Assembly: GCF_000337835.1 (NCBI RefSeq)
Contig: NZ_AOLM01000003.1
Span: forward strand, 124,001 to 188,000
DNA length: 64,000 nt
Direction of reading: 5' to 3'
DNA from: Haloferax sulfurifontis ATCC BAA-897
GTDB lineage: Archaea > Halobacteriota > Halobacteria > Halobacteriales > Haloferacaceae
Made by a program: the position numbers and the translations under genes. Below are positions 3,526 to 38,070 of this stretch, piece after piece. The number at the start of each line of letters is the position of its first letter. The stretch's first letter is position 1. Below the pieces are notes generated by a model. It was given only the letters and a program-made list of their open reading frames with translations. It searched no databases and had not been told where the DNA came from.

Positions 3526-3758
3526 TGTTGCGGGTTGGAACCGCACTGACCGCAGAAACGAGTACCCCGCAGTCGTATCACCGACTACCGGGGCACTACC
3601 GCAATCCCAAGCCCAAACTGGGCGAGTCAGATTTGCGGCCGTGCTGGATTCCCATCGGGTTGTCCACGCGCGCCGGGTTAAACCGTTTCGACTCGGTCCC
3701 GACTCGACCCGGTCGGAATCGAAGGGCTTCTAAACGGGCGACGGCTATCGGAAGTTGC

Positions 3759-3830
3759 GGGCTCGTAGATCAGGGGTAGATCACTCCCTTGGCATGGGAG
3801 AGGCCCCGGGTTCAAATCCCGGCGAGTCCA
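3759..3830 (+). tRNA. tRNA-Ala (anticodon GGC)
   Basis: 72 nt cloverleaf. The acceptor stem GGGCTCG pairs with CGAGTCC and contains the alanine identity pair G3:U70, with discriminator A73. The anticodon stem CTCCC/GGGAG holds the loop TTGGCAT, so the anticodon is GGC. The T-arm is GGGTTCAAATCCC. CCA is not encoded. A TATA-like CTTCTAAACG lies about 30 nt upstream. The gene is duplicated at 4609, and fragments of its 3' end recur downstream. Confidence 0.97.
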
Positions 3831-4243
3831 CTAATCTCTCTCTGGACTTCCGACGAGCGGAGCGAGTCGCGAGGCCAGAGTAAATTAGTCCTGTTCGAGA
3901 CGGGATTTGAGCAGCGAGCAAATCTTCGATTTGCGAGTGAGTTCAAATCCCGGCGAGTCCACTCACTTCCTTCCGTCGCTTCGCTCAGTCAGTCGTTCGT
4001 GGACTCGCCGACGTCCCACTCGCTTCGTCTGCGGGCGACCCGCGAGTCGCCCGCATGGCATACGAGACGGCAACGCCGTCTCGCTCTGCTCGCGGGACTC
4101 CCGGCGAGTCCATTTCTGAACGAAGTGAAGAACTGAGAATGAGCGCTCGGTTCGTCTACAGGCAACTCATTCGTCCGGCAACCGCGTTCGAGCAGTCGCG
4201 ACAAACACGCCGATTCGACACGCTGTCGAGCGCGTCTGCGACC
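3831..4243. other. Gene-free interval filled with tRNA-derived fragments and short palindromes
   Basis: No convincing coding frame. It holds the 3' trailer of the first tRNA-Ala, the fragment unit at 3941-4015, a 13-nt acceptor-end fragment at 4100-4112 followed by CTGAACGAAGTGAAGAA, and several short palindromes such as GCAAATCTTCGATTTGC near 3918. No integrase or transposase gene is nearby. Confidence 0.7.
3941..4015 (+). repeat. tRNA-Ala 3'-end fragment followed by an inverted acceptor-end copy (unit 1)
   Basis: 3941-3961 repeats the last 21 nt of tRNA-Ala without the rest of the gene. From 3951 the acceptor end CGGCGAGTCCAC is repeated inverted at 3999-4010, giving 12-bp perfect inverted ends around a 36-nt spacer. 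The whole stretch recurs at 4796-4870 with only two visible substitutions. It could be a strong terminator-like hairpin, a relic of site-specific integration, or a small non-autonomous element. Confidence 0.8.
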
Positions 4244-4608: not shown

Positions 4609-4680
4609 GGGCTCGTAGATCAGGGGTAGATCACTCCCTTGGCATGGGAGAGGCCCCGGGTTCAAATCCCGGCGAGTCCA
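4609..4680 (+). tRNA. tRNA-Ala (anticodon GGC), second copy
   Basis: Identical over its 72 nt to the copy at 3759-3830, including the G3:U70 pair, anticodon GGC and T-arm. A good TATA-like box (CTTATTTATC at 4571-4580) sits about 30 nt upstream. Upstream sequences differ between the two copies, so each has its own promoter. Downstream the acceptor end recurs several times. Confidence 0.97.
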
Positions 4681-33577: not shown

Positions 33578-34009
33578 ATGACCGTCCGCGTGAAACGAAC
33601 GTTCGAGTTCGACGCTCCCGGCGAGCGCGTCTGGGAGTTCATCGCCGACCCGGCCAAGCGAGCGGGGGCTATCAGCGTCGTCGACCGCTTCGACGTGGCC
33701 GACGACGGCCGCCACGCGACGTGGTATCTCGAACTCCCGATTCCGCTCGTCCGCTCGACGGTGACCGTCGAGACCGAGGACATCGAGGTCGACGAGCCGA
33801 CCCACGTCAAGTTCGTCGGCAAGTCGCGGGTGATGCGAGTGACGGGCGAACACACTATCGAAGAGCGCGACGGCGGGAGCCGACTCGTCAACGAGTTCAC
33901 CGTCGACGGCCGCCTGCCCGGCGTCGAGGCGTTCTTCGAGCGCAACCTCGACCGCGAACTCGACAACCTCGAAGCGGCGCTCCGACGCGAGTTCGAAGCG
34001 ACGGCCTGA
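33578..34009 (+). CDS. SRPBCC (START-like/CoxG-type) lipid-binding protein
   Basis: 143 residues with the START/Bet v 1 helix-grip pattern: strand VRVKRTFEFDAPGERVWEFIADPAKRAGAI, a series of strands, and a long C-terminal helix (FFERNLDRELDNLEAALRREFE). These proteins bind hydrophobic ligands, and some act as cyclases or as stress factors. The ligand is unknown. A TTTTACTG box about 27 nt upstream supports the start. A hairpin CCGGTCGCC/GGCGACCGG at 34027-34053 just after the stop may terminate transcription. Confidence 0.75.
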   Translation: MTVRVKRTFEFDAPGERVWEFIADPAKRAGAISVVDRFDVADDGRHATWYLELPIPLVRSTVTVETEDIEVDEPTHVKFVGKSRVMRVTGEHTIEERDGGSRLVNEFTVDGRLPGVEAFFERNLDRELDNLEAALRREFEATA

Positions 34010-34110
34010 GGCCGGCGACGGGTTCGCCGGTCGCCGCCCCCGTCGGCGACCGGGCGACCGATACCGCGAGAATCGTGTTCTCACGGGGTATGAGAACGGG
34101 TGTTGCGGTG

Positions 34111-34120
34111 GGTTTATACA
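34111..34120 (+). promoter_or_regulatory. TATA-like promoter of putative small RNA
   Basis: GGTTTATACA, a near-consensus archaeal box in a GC-rich context. Transcription would start about 25 nt on, near 34139, exactly where the first perfect hairpin begins. No start codon with a plausible frame lies downstream before the hairpin series. Confidence 0.6.
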
Positions 34121-34138
34121 TTGCGGCTCCTTAGCGAA

Positions 34139-34351
34139 AGTCGCCGACGCAATAGGCGCTTTTCTCGCCAGTCGTCGGCGACTCCACATCCGCCGCACCC
34201 GCCGCAACGTTTCGGGGTCCGTTGCGGCATCCGAAACGGCGTGGCCACGTCGTTTCGCGCTCCCAAGCCCGGTGGGAGCGCACTCCCCTCGTCTCACTTC
34301 GCCAACTGGTGACACGAGATTCGGCGGGAGGCGAATTCGCCTCCGCCTTTT
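34139..34351 (+). ncRNA. Putative structured small RNA, about 210 nt
   Basis: No coding frame with haloarchaeal character fits this interval. Instead there are four strong stems in series: AGTCGCCGACG (34139-34149) with CGTCGGCGACT (34173-34183), enclosing an inner GGCG/CGCC; GCCGCAACG (34201-34209) with CGTTGCGGC (34220-34228), which competes with CGTTTCGG (34208-34215)/CCGAAACG (34231-34238); GCGCTCCCA (34257-34265) with TGGGAGCGC (34273-34281); and the terminator at 34323. A TATA box lies one promoter length upstream. It does not match the conserved parts of SRP RNA or RNase P RNA that I can recall. The identity is unknown and expression is inferred. Confidence 0.55.
34323..34351 (+). terminator. 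Hairpin terminator with T4 tract
   Basis: GGCGGGAGGCGAA pairs with TTCGCCTCCGCC (one bulged G), followed at once by TTTT (34348-34351). It ends the putative small RNA before the gene at 34455. Confidence 0.6.
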
Positions 34352-34454
34352 GACGACCGCTTCGCTCCGAGCGACGGCCCCGTCGTGCCTCGGCGGCGAC
34401 CGCCCGACGGCCCGAGAGCGCACGCTTCTTTCCTCCGGACCTCGTGGAGCCACC

Positions 34455-34769
34455 ATGACCGAGACGATTCGAGGCGACGTACTACACGCCATCCCGCCGG
34501 ACGAACTCGACGACGAGGACCTGTCGCCCGAGCTCCGGGCGCTGGCCGACTCGCGCCACGTGCTCGTCATCAGGAAGGGCGGCCATCCCTCGATGCTCGA
34601 CCTCGTCTGGGCGTTCGTCCGCCGCGACCCCATCGAGGCGGTGACCGTCGTGACAGACCGCCCGGCCGAGGAGGACGAGGAAGTGACGCTGACCGTCGAG
34701 GAGACGGACATGCCCGGCGTCTACGTCGCGGCGGACGCTCGCGAGCAGACAGCGTCGGACGACGGGTGA
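34455..34769 (+). CDS. Conserved small haloarchaeal protein of unknown function
   Basis: 104 residues, acidic, with a compact pattern: IRGDVLHAIPPDELDDEDLSPELRAL, then strand RHVLVIRKGG, a helix with LVWAFVRRDPIEAV and strands ending EVTLTVEETDMPGVYVAA. No membrane or metal motif. It ends 52 nt before the convergent P5C dehydrogenase gene. I recall similar proteins in haloarchaea but no function. Confidence 0.65.
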   Translation: MTETIRGDVLHAIPPDELDDEDLSPELRALADSRHVLVIRKGGHPSMLDLVWAFVRRDPIEAVTVVTDRPAEEDEEVTLTVEETDMPGVYVAADAREQTASDDG

Positions 34770-34821: not shown

Positions 34822-36348
34822 TTACTCGTCTTGTTTGGTCTTGATGTCCGCCGAGAGGCCCTGCGCCATGCGAATCTCCTTGGAGTTGTTGAGCGTCCAC
34901 GCGGTGCGCTCGGTGACGGCCTCGATGATTTCGCGCGCCGAGGGGTAGCCGTTGCCGGACTTCTTCACGCCGCCGAACGGGAGGTGGACCTCCGCGCCGA
35001 TACACGGGAGGTTGCCGTAGGCGAGACCGACCTCGGCGTGGTCGCGGAAGTAGTTTATCTGGCGGTAGTCCTCGGAGATGACGGCACCGGCCAGCCCGTA
35101 GTCGGTGTCGTTCTGAATCTCGACGGCGTCCTCGATGTCGCCGGAGTACTTCAGCAGGGCGACGTGGGGGCCGAAGACCTCCTCGTGGGTACAGCGGAGG
35201 TCGTCGTGGGGGTCAGCCTCGTAGACGAACGGCCCGACCCAGTGGCCCGCCTCGTGGCCCTCGGGAATCTCGTCGCCGTCGAGTTCGGTGCGGTCGACGA
35301 GGACGTTCACGCCCTCCTTTTTCGCGAGTTCGTTGTACTTCGTGACCTTCTCCCTGTGGCCCTCCTCGATGAGCGGCCCCATGAACGTGTCCTCGCGGAG
35401 CGGGTCGCCGACCGAGACGTTCTTCGCGTTCTCGACGAAGCGCTCCTTGAACTCGTCGTAGACGTCCTCGTGGACGACGATGCGCTCGGAGGAGACACAG
35501 CGCTGGCCGGTGGTCTTGAACGACGACATCGTCGCGGAGTGGACCGCGATGTCGAGGTCCGCCTTCTCGGTGATGACGATGTTGTTCTTGCCGCCCATCT
35601 CGCACGCGGCGAGCTTGCCGGGCTGTTGGGCCACCTTGCTCGCGACCTCGTGGCCGACCTCGGCGGAGCCGGTAAACAGCACGGAGTCGACGCGTTCGTC
35701 GTCGACGATGCTCGCGCCGGCGTCGCCGAAGCCCTGTACCATGTTGAACACGCCGTCGGGGATGCCGGCGTCCTCGAACATCTCGGCGATAATCTGGCCG
35801 CACCACGGCGTCTGCTCGGCGGGCTTCCAGACGACGGTGTTGCCCTCGACGAGCGCGACGGCCATGTGCCAGAAGGGGATGGCCACGGGGAAGTTCCACG
35901 GGGTGATACAGCCCACGACGCCGCGGGGCTTGCGGCGCATGTAGGCGTCCTTCGCGGGAATCTCGGAGGGAATCACGTCGCCCTTGGGGTGGCGGGCGTC
36001 GCCCGCGGCCCACTCGACCATGTGGTACGCCTCGATGACGTCGGCGCGGCCCTCGGAGATCTCCTTGCCGCACTCCTTGGTGACGACCTCCGCGAGCTCC
36101 TCCGTGCGGTCGCGCAGTTCGTGGTAGATGTCCCAGAGGTACTCCGCGCGGTCGATGTGCGAGAGTTCGCGCCACTCCTCGTACGCCTCGTCGGCCGCGG
36201 CGGCCGCCGCGTCGATGTCCTCGGGCGTGCCGCGTCGGAACGTCCCCAGCGACTCGCCCGTCGCGGGGTTCGTGCTCTCGAACGTCTCGTCGCCGGTTCC
36301 GTCCGTCCACTCGCCGTCGATATAGTGCCGATATTCGTCTTCCGCCAT
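34822..36348 (-). CDS. 1-pyrroline-5-carboxylate dehydrogenase (aldehyde dehydrogenase family)
   Basis: 508 residues, full aldehyde dehydrogenase. The NAD site is TPWNFP and FTGSAEVG, the general base Glu is in ACEMGGKN, and the nucleophile Cys is in TTGQRCVSSERI. By context it should oxidise glutamate semialdehyde/P5C to glutamate: a proline dehydrogenase gene and a Bat-type regulator are adjacent. Its promoter (GTTATTAATC on the minus strand, 36371-36380) gives a leaderless start at 36348, and a perfect 14-bp palindrome covers the start of transcription. ALDH substrate specificity cannot be read from sequence alone. Confidence 0.82.
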   Translation of the reverse strand: MAEDEYRHYIDGEWTDGTGDETFESTNPATGESLGTFRRGTPEDIDAAAAAADEAYEEWRELSHIDRAEYLWDIYHELRDRTEELAEVVTKECGKEISEGRADVIEAYHMVEWAAGDARHPKGDVIPSEIPAKDAYMRRKPRGVVGCITPWNFPVAIPFWHMAVALVEGNTVVWKPAEQTPWCGQIIAEMFEDAGIPDGVFNMVQGFGDAGASIVDDERVDSVLFTGSAEVGHEVASKVAQQPGKLAACEMGGKNNIVITEKADLDIAVHSATMSSFKTTGQRCVSSERIVVHEDVYDEFKERFVENAKNVSVGDPLREDTFMGPLIEEGHREKVTKYNELAKKEGVNVLVDRTELDGDEIPEGHEAGHWVGPFVYEADPHDDLRCTHEEVFGPHVALLKYSGDIEDAVEIQNDTDYGLAGAVISEDYRQINYFRDHAEVGLAYGNLPCIGAEVHLPFGGVKKSGNGYPSAREIIEAVTERTAWTLNNSKEIRMAQGLSADIKTKQDE

Positions 36349-36349
36349 A

Positions 36350-36363
36350 TGACTCTAGAGTCA
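36350..36363. promoter_or_regulatory. Candidate operator, perfect palindrome TGACTCTAGAGTCA
   Basis: A 14-bp perfect palindrome lying between the TATA box (36371-36380) and the start codon (36346-36348) of the P5C dehydrogenase gene, so over the expected transcription start. Protein bound here should block initiation, which would suit a substrate-responsive repressor. It was not seen at the neighbouring promoters. Confidence 0.55.
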
Positions 36364-36458
36364 CGACTAAGATTAATAACCCCGGACCCTCCCATGGAAG
36401 GGCCGCGTCCGAACCGACGCGTCACCGCGACGCCGCGTGACCACAGACAACATCTTAC

Positions 36459-36473
36459 GTAACGACGTGTTAC
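36459..36473. promoter_or_regulatory. Candidate operator, GTAAC-N5-GTTAC
   Basis: Inverted repeat GTAAC and GTTAC spaced by GACGT, 8-22 nt upstream of the regulator's ATG at 36481, over its likely start of transcription. Possible autoregulatory site. Short dyads can arise by chance, so support is modest. Confidence 0.4.
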
Positions 36474-36480
36474 CCGGTGT

Positions 36481-37200
36481 ATGAGCGAGCGCACGTCAGG
36501 TGAAGGTACGCGCCTCACGCTCGACCTGTGGCATCCGAACTGTTGGGCCATCGAATCGACCAGCGAGTACGACGGCGGCATCCTCGCACACGCCATCTAC
36601 GACGCGCCCACCGCGGGCGTCGAGCGGTCGAACGGACTGTTCACCGCCTACGGCGAGTCGCTCGACGAAGTCGAGACGCTCCTCGACGTCATCGCCGACT
36701 CGGACCTCACAGGCGAGGTGTTGGAACTCCAAGAGCGGTTCGACTCCCGCGGGAAGCACGTCGCGCCCGGCCCGGTCGCCCGCGAGTTCTTCCTTGAGTA
36801 CGACCCGAGCGACATGATGTGTCCGGAGCTACTCAAGCAGGGCTTCGTCCACAGCGCCCCCACGCAGATAGAAAACGGCCGCGAGCGGTGGGAGGTCTGG
36901 TTCGCCGGCGCGCGCGAGGAGATACAGCCGAGCATCGAGACCGTCATGGACGAGACCGGCGCGGAGATTCGCGTCGCCTCCATCTCCACGTCCGAGGGCG
37001 CGGAACCGGAGCGCAGTCGGCGGCTCGACACGCTCACCCGAAGCCAGCGGCAGGCGTTCGAACTCGCGCGCGAAGAGGGATACTACCGCTGGCCCCGCGA
37101 GGTGTCGACCCGCGAACTCGCCGCCGAGATGGACATCTCGAAGACGACGCTCCTCGAACACCTGCGCAAGGCGGAATCGAAACTGCTCGACCCGCAGTAG
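36481..37200 (+). CDS. Bat-type helix-turn-helix regulator, probable control of proline catabolism
   Basis: 239 residues. The C-terminal HTH_10 (bacterio-opsin activator) domain is at about residues 180-236: LTRSQRQAFELAREEGYYRWPREVSTRELAAEMDISKTTLLEHLRKAESKLL. The N-terminal 170 residues are a sensory region of the type found in haloarchaeal Bat-like regulators. It is divergent from the P5C dehydrogenase gene and next to proline dehydrogenase, an arrangement that suggests it senses proline or P5C and controls both. Activation or repression cannot be told from sequence. Confidence 0.82.
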   Translation: MSERTSGEGTRLTLDLWHPNCWAIESTSEYDGGILAHAIYDAPTAGVERSNGLFTAYGESLDEVETLLDVIADSDLTGEVLELQERFDSRGKHVAPGPVAREFFLEYDPSDMMCPELLKQGFVHSAPTQIENGRERWEVWFAGAREEIQPSIETVMDETGAEIRVASISTSEGAEPERSRRLDTLTRSQRQAFELAREEGYYRWPREVSTRELAAEMDISKTTLLEHLRKAESKLLDPQ

Positions 37201-37230
37201 CGCGGGGCGAATCGAGGGTTCGGCCCCGGC

Positions 37231-38070
37231 TCAGATGCCGGCGACGGCCCGGAGCGCGAACAGCGCGTTCGATTTCTGCTCGCGGACGCGCCGGTAGAAG
37301 TAGGAGAACCACTTGTCGCCGTAGGGGACGTACTGCCACATCTCGATGTCGGCGGCCGCGAGGTTGCGCTGGCCGTCCTCGCGCACGCCCATGAGCATCT
37401 GCACCTCGTAGGGCGTTCCGTACTGTTCGTGGAGGCGGCGGGCGTGCGCAATCATGTGCGGGTCGTGACTGCCGACCGCGACGCCGTCGTCGAACTCGGT
37501 GAACATCTGTTCGAGGAGGTCCCTGTACACCTCGTCCACCTTCGACTTCTCCTTGTACGCGATGGACGCGGGCTCGTTGTACGCGCCCTTGACGAGACGG
37601 ACCTTCCCGGGCACCTCCGCGAGGCGTTCGAGGTCGTCACGCGTGCGCTTGAGGTTCGCCTGCACGCAGACGCCGACGTTTCCGCCCGTCCGGTGGCCGA
37701 GGTCGTCGACGGCGTCGAGGGTCACGTCGGTCGTCTCGTGGTCCTCCATGTCGACCCAGACGAACACGCCCTCGGCGTCCGCGGCGTCGACGATGCGGTC
37801 GAGGTTCTCCCGGAACGCGCGGTCGCCGACGTCGAGACCGATTTGCGAGGGCTTCACCGAGACACAGCCGTCGAGGTCCGTCGCGCCGAGTTGGCGGACG
37901 AGGTCGACGTACGCGTCGGCGTCGGCGTCGGCGGCCGCCCGGTCGGTGTAGTGCTCGCCGAGTAAGTTCAATATCCCCGCGATGCCGTCGCGGTTCAGCG
38001 ACTCGACGTGCGAGACCGCCCCGTCGGCCGTCTCACCCGCCACGAAGTTGTTCGCGATGGGGGGTATCAT
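37231..38070 (-). CDS. Proline dehydrogenase
   Basis: 279 residues, monofunctional PRODH with the FAD-binding TIM-barrel motifs: SVKPSQIGL, the barrel strand VFVWVDMEDHETTD, VQANLKRT, VRLVKGAYNEP and the C-terminal FSYFYRRVRE that carries the substrate-binding Arg pair. It oxidises proline to P5C and passes electrons to quinone. It is smaller than bacterial PutA and belongs to the archaeal/Gram-positive monofunctional group. The product feeds the P5C dehydrogenase gene 0.9 kb away. Two direct repeats flank its TATA box. Confidence 0.9.
   Translation of the reverse strand: MIPPIANNFVAGETADGAVSHVESLNRDGIAGILNLLGEHYTDRAAADADADAYVDLVRQLGATDLDGCVSVKPSQIGLDVGDRAFRENLDRIVDAADAEGVFVWVDMEDHETTDVTLDAVDDLGHRTGGNVGVCVQANLKRTRDDLERLAEVPGKVRLVKGAYNEPASIAYKEKSKVDEVYRDLLEQMFTEFDDGVAVGSHDPHMIAHARRLHEQYGTPYEVQMLMGVREDGQRNLAAADIEMWQYVPYGDKWFSYFYRRVREQKSNALFALRAVAGI

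Follow-up and report, generated by a model that had tools for sequence, protein, structure and literature searches.

The window, i.e., the whole stretch of 64,000 nucleotides of Haloferax DNA that we analyzed, contains a structured RNA specified by an independent gene that is very probably conserved across the class Halobacteria. By position and gene order, it is almost certainly the orthologue of sRNA500 of Haloferax volcanii. Hence, the term "orphan," applied to it in a preliminary description of the locus, has to be abandoned on both counts. The transcript was previously known in one species; the family and its conservation are new relative to Rfam 15 and to the open-access literature searched.

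The gene and its promoter

The RNA lies in a gap without a gene that has the 445 bp initially claimed (34010-34454) and is bounded by the end of an SRPBCC-family gene at 34009 and by a small gene starting at 34455 (Table 1). The claimed TATA box is present within it, upstream of a WW element. Among 101 homologues, the box, TTTA(T/A), stands 41-46 nt ahead of the loop of the first hairpin and about 30 nt ahead of GCC, the first conserved bases of the stem, and 87 of them have an A 20 nt past the first T of the box. These homologues were picked by an upstream TTTA(T/A), so that the presence of the box among them is by construction, but its spacing is not. A strict pattern (TATA-N30-58-hairpin) matched 30 genomes, all of them Halobacteria, against 0 for the reversed control, and had no match in about 240 genomes outside the class. 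A WW at -10 has been proposed as a haloarchaeal promoter element alongside the TATA box (PMC4983044), and the layout found here fits this arrangement, with a start at the base of P1. These observations support the initial proposal that the RNA is structured, independent, and transcribed from a promoter of its own, with a start near 34139.

Table 1. Features of the RNA gene and its surroundings (window coordinates)
Feature	Position	Strand	Description
SRPBCC-family gene	33578..34009	+	HVO_1187 by position; upstream syntenic marker
TATA box	34113..34118	+	TTTATA; near-constant distance to first stem across homologues
WW element	34132..34133	+	TA; about 20 nt past first T of TATA box
P1	34139..34183	+	5' stem: inner hairpin on an outer stem of 11 bp, with an asymmetric internal loop
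P1 inner hairpin	34155..34169	+	GGCG-CUUUUCU-CGCC; consensus GRCG CUUUUC(U/A) CGYC, called invariant
Linker	34190..34198	+	CCGCCGCAC; single-stranded, conserved across much of its own family
P2	34201..34228	+	9-bp hairpin, loop UUUCGGGGUC; GGGGUC in its own family (f1) only
P3	34233..34256	+	10-bp hairpin, Haloferax-specific
P4	34257..34281	+	9-bp hairpin, CCGG within loop (AGCCCGG)
P5	34288..34318	+	Imperfect hairpin (CTCGTCTCAC...GTGACACGAG), kept in most Haloferax genomes
Putative terminator	34327-34344, TTTT 34348-34351	+	Hairpin then TTTT, in part of Haloferax only

Structure and covariation

The folding energy of the 213-nt stretch 34139-34351 is -107.9 kcal/mol; 200 dinucleotide shuffles gave -80.6 +/- 4.8 (z = -5.7), and not one of them equaled it. 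The 11-bp stem previously proposed (34139-34149 with 34173-34183) was recovered, as were the two 9-bp stems (34201-34209 with 34220-34228 and 34257-34265 with 34273-34281), and there is an additional 10-bp stem, P3, that had not been listed. Two other elements of the preliminary description stand only in part. The final hairpin with T4 is indeed present, but it is not a general terminator: its sequence is largely retained at the Haloferax loci L001-L010 and replaced by other sequences at L011-L015, and the reported 155-nt sRNA500 would stop upstream of it. Similarly, CGTTTCGG (34208-34215) and CCGAAACG (34231-34238) are complementary, but we rejected a conserved pseudoknot or switch because the pairing is missing from L009-L015 of the same genus, about half of the Haloferax genomes. 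P5 may belong either to an extended form of the RNA or to the 3' end of the convergent gene, and the RNA may stop before it. A kissing interaction between the loops of P2 and P4 (GGG with CCC) would be possible and was also set aside, since both sides are near-invariant, without covariation, and the CCGG remains where P2 is missing.

A DNA query of 261 bases gave one main match in each of 15 Haloferax genomes (86-100% identity) and diverged matches in other genera. Conserved in the alignment are the TATA box, GRCG-CUUUUCU-CGYC, the linker CCGCCGCA, GGGGUC in the loop of P2, and CCGG in that of P4, whereas the stems are variable; the indels among the Haloferax sequences have lengths that are not multiples of three. 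A covariance model (R1) widened the set of homologues beyond these matches. In 31 sequences, 95.5% of the cells of P1 and P2 taken together are paired and 18 of the 22 pairs have changed on both sides; structures slid along the alignment reached 23-54%, and no shuffle attained the observed pairing level. P2 has compensating changes at all 9 of its 9 pairs, with 98.1% paired. For P1, 68 sequences fitted to a second model (R2, see below) are 95.2% paired, with both-side changes in 7 of 11 pairs and slid controls at 22-66%, in an alignment that is biased toward the structure by construction. A MAFFT alignment (A5), whose rows were selected for consistent alignment, agrees on the pairing of P1. 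Stems lacking compensating changes had been named at the outset as evidence that would count against the RNA; the stems are instead preserved in both the 31- and the 68-sequence sets.

The hairpin with the CCGG loop was found in 63 of the 101 homologues; mononucleotide shuffles gave 6.8, and upstream sequence gave 8. Several further homologues have other self-complementary loop centers (CCUAGG, CCGCGG). Judging from these sequences, such a loop could possibly allow the RNA to form dimers.

Distribution across the Halobacteria

A genome-wide pattern scan was positive in Haloferax, Halorubrum, Halobellus, Haloquadratum, Halogeometricum, Halogranum, Halolamina, Haloprofundus, Halegenticoccus, and Halobium; its bacterial matches were discarded as chance, since the surrounding stem and the promoter arrangement are missing there. 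Of 391 genomes of Halobacteria, 195 contain the pattern of the inner hairpin, against about a dozen with the reversed control. Several families have the loop variant CUUUUCA. Among 30 genomes picked because the exact pattern was missing, 15 have a variant of the RNA near the SRPBCC gene, with a CUUUUCA loop or with CGUU or CGCU as the closing side. Model R2, which describes P1 alone and was built from 32 sequences, had matches at E<=0.01 in 368 of the 391 genomes and in 80 of 86 genera, nearly always in one copy; at that level, 40 genomes from other classes gave none. In the window it matched 34139-34185 (E = 9e-8). The E-values of R2 are rough and part of its seeds lie inside the searched set; independent support comes from synteny and promoter spacing. 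The plasmid records searched hold no copy of the RNA.

Two genomes of the genus g23 have an extra element that could be a paralogue (L147, at G036:C4:135900-136900, minus strand near 543, and L034, at 1453-1742). It consists of a GGCG-CUUUUCU-CG hairpin and a following hairpin; its flanks differ, and the TATA box is missing from its usual position.

The SRPBCC gene was present in 30 of the 30 genomes of the class that were tested, which are those picked for lacking the exact pattern, and is upstream of the RNA at most loci. The commonest order is SRPBCC, (nitrilase), RNA, (Gfo/Idh or aldehyde dehydrogenase). Neighboring genes are common to different families, and the context varies between lineages.

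Correspondence with sRNA500 of H. volcanii

sRNA500 (HVO_1187s) is a 155-nt RNA at 1,080,188-342 F of the H. volcanii chromosome that was detected by RNomics, bioinformatic prediction, and sequencing (PMC3956466). In the same species, HVO_1189 (aldH2) and HVO_1191 (proline dehydrogenase) occupy 1,080,889-1,084,135 of CP001956 (PMC6801745). This pair spans 3247 bp in H. volcanii and 3249 bp in the window (34822-38070), and the coordinates of sRNA500 project to approximately 34121-34275. The order HVO_1187, HVO_1187s, HVO_1189, HVO_1191 matches the window, and position, strand, and neighbors all agree with sRNA500. In Haloferax genomes with a comparable layout, P1 is 679-691 nt from the stop of the aldehyde dehydrogenase gene, whereas the start of sRNA500 is 701 nt from it. 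Therefore, barring small indels, the mapped 5' end of sRNA500 would lie some 10-20 nt upstream of P1.

Table 5 of the original report gives 0 other genomes for sRNA500, and the published BLAST found no relatives (PMC3956466), in conflict with the 86-98% identity that we observed among Haloferax species. Provided that the positional identification is right, our results would contradict the reported single-species range. Deletion of sRNA500 lowered swarming to 29% of the wild type, with a yield after paraquat of 129%. The swarming phenotype is not specific, because the deletion study recorded lowered swarming for 5 of its 17 sRNA mutants.

Assignment to a class of RNA

Searches with Rfam 15 placed no family above its gathering threshold on the RNA, either in the window or at 20 homologous loci, and permissive E-values gave chance-level matches only (E<=5 for the region, E<=2 for one distant homologue). 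This agrees with the initial view that it is not an SRP RNA, an RNase P RNA, or a tRNA, and extends it to the other Rfam families. A C/D guide had been discounted as well, and both the C box RUGAUGA and the D box CUGA are missing from 34139-34293. We also rejected an H/ACA guide RNA: the position of the ACA varies across homologues, and the upper stem has 4-7 bp and is closed by CUUUUC(U/A). The gene has its own promoter, is intergenic, and has no conserved reading frame, as in trans-acting intergenic sRNAs, with the action in trans being putative.

Elsewhere in the window, Rfam recognizes an S15-Halobacteria ribosomal protein leader at 3593-3655 (RF03143, E=2.5e-12). There are also two equally scoring tRNA-Ala(GGC) genes on one strand (3759-3831 and 4609-4680), separated by 0.8 kb.

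How could the RNA act?

The pyrimidine loop is invariant in a stem that drifts, and this suggests a partner that reads the loop. We consider it fairly probable that the RNA acts in trans through such a partner. The single-copy gene would be expressed from the TATA/WW promoter, with a start at P1 or within a few bases of it, such that the 5' end would be tucked into the helix. P1 would display the invariant CUUUUC(U/A) loop and would be followed by the C-rich linker and by further hairpins, one of them with the self-complementary CCGG loop. The pyrimidine loop could be the docking site of a conserved RNA-binding protein, for which the best candidate would be Lsm, the Sm-like protein. The RNA might then either compete with mRNAs for Lsm or be presented by Lsm to its targets, and its net effect would be to favor motility, with a probable influence on stress as well. 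The steps that involve Lsm, namely, the docking, the identity of the partner, and the mode of action, are put forward only tentatively. Archaeal Lsm binds U-rich RNA, and deletion of the Sm1 motif of lsm in H. volcanii increased motility (PMC10779274). The opposite effects on motility of the Sm1-motif and sRNA500 deletions would be compatible with restraint of Lsm by the RNA, which we take as a lead only. A dedicated ribonucleoprotein could be built around the near-universal CUUUUC(U/A)-loop RNA, possibly sequestering Lsm, and this idea is at present speculative. To our knowledge, an Lsm-sequestering RNA acting as a global regulator has not been described in archaea.

The loops are conserved more than the stems, which is also what one would see if the CUUUUC loop, the GGGGUC loop, or the C-rich linker served as a seed for mRNAs, no dedicated protein being needed. 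Base pairing of this sort is the usual proposal for haloarchaeal intergenic sRNAs (PMC12482152; PMC7002113). Yet, complements of the loop occur in the rRNA operon and in the window at chance level only, and in some families the loop has changed from U to A with no known matching change in a target; we regard this explanation as conceivable but rather unlikely. A lone 7-mer and a 10-mer match between the loop and rRNA were discarded as chance level.

The near universality, single copy, and fixed structure of the RNA would also suit a housekeeping function in a dedicated ribonucleoprotein, for example on ribosomes or RNA polymerase. H. volcanii has abundant non-coding sRNAs that are occupied by ribosomes, which are not linked to this locus (PMC12482152); sRNA_60 and sRNA_61 are given as abundant in that report. 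However, deletion of the gene is tolerated, with mild phenotypes, and the RNA has no notable complementarity to rRNA, making such a function improbable. Finally, a cis element (a bidirectional terminator or a 3' UTR structure of the neighbors rather than an RNA gene) would suit the many lineages in which the RNA lies between a same-strand upstream gene and convergent genes, but it is hardly credible given the TATA and WW conserved at a fixed distance from P1, the different orientation relative to the neighbors in L179/L180, where the usual order is reversed, and the discrete transcript cloned from the orthologous place.

Haloarchaeal sRNAs have been described as fast evolving and mostly restricted to one species, and sRNA500 was listed as an example, yet it would be nearly universal. 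On account of its range and its covarying structure, it is a prime candidate for an archaeal core riboregulator. In a tractable laboratory species, the deletion mutant and an Lsm mutant are both available, and the many relatives permit tests across species, so that the role of conserved archaeal sRNAs can be tested directly.

Comparison with known RNAs

The closest counterpart of the window RNA is sRNA500, with which it shares the strand, a similar length, and a site between the SRPBCC gene and HVO_1189/HVO_1191. They differ in that sRNA500, as published, occurs in no other haloarchaeal genome and has no structure, whereas the window RNA is class-wide and has a covarying one. A study of halite communities reported 22 conserved intergenic haloarchaeal sRNAs of unknown function (PMC7002113). 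They resemble the window RNA in being present in several Halobacteria and in having no assigned function; the sections of that study available to us do not name it. Among better-known regulators, CsrB carries many copies of its motif, whereas the window RNA carries one, with no homology between them and with binding that is putative here. The likeness to CsrB, to 6S RNA, and to sRNAs that bind Hfq and Sm-like proteins concerns only how they may work: a compact RNA exposing an invariant motif suited to a protein.
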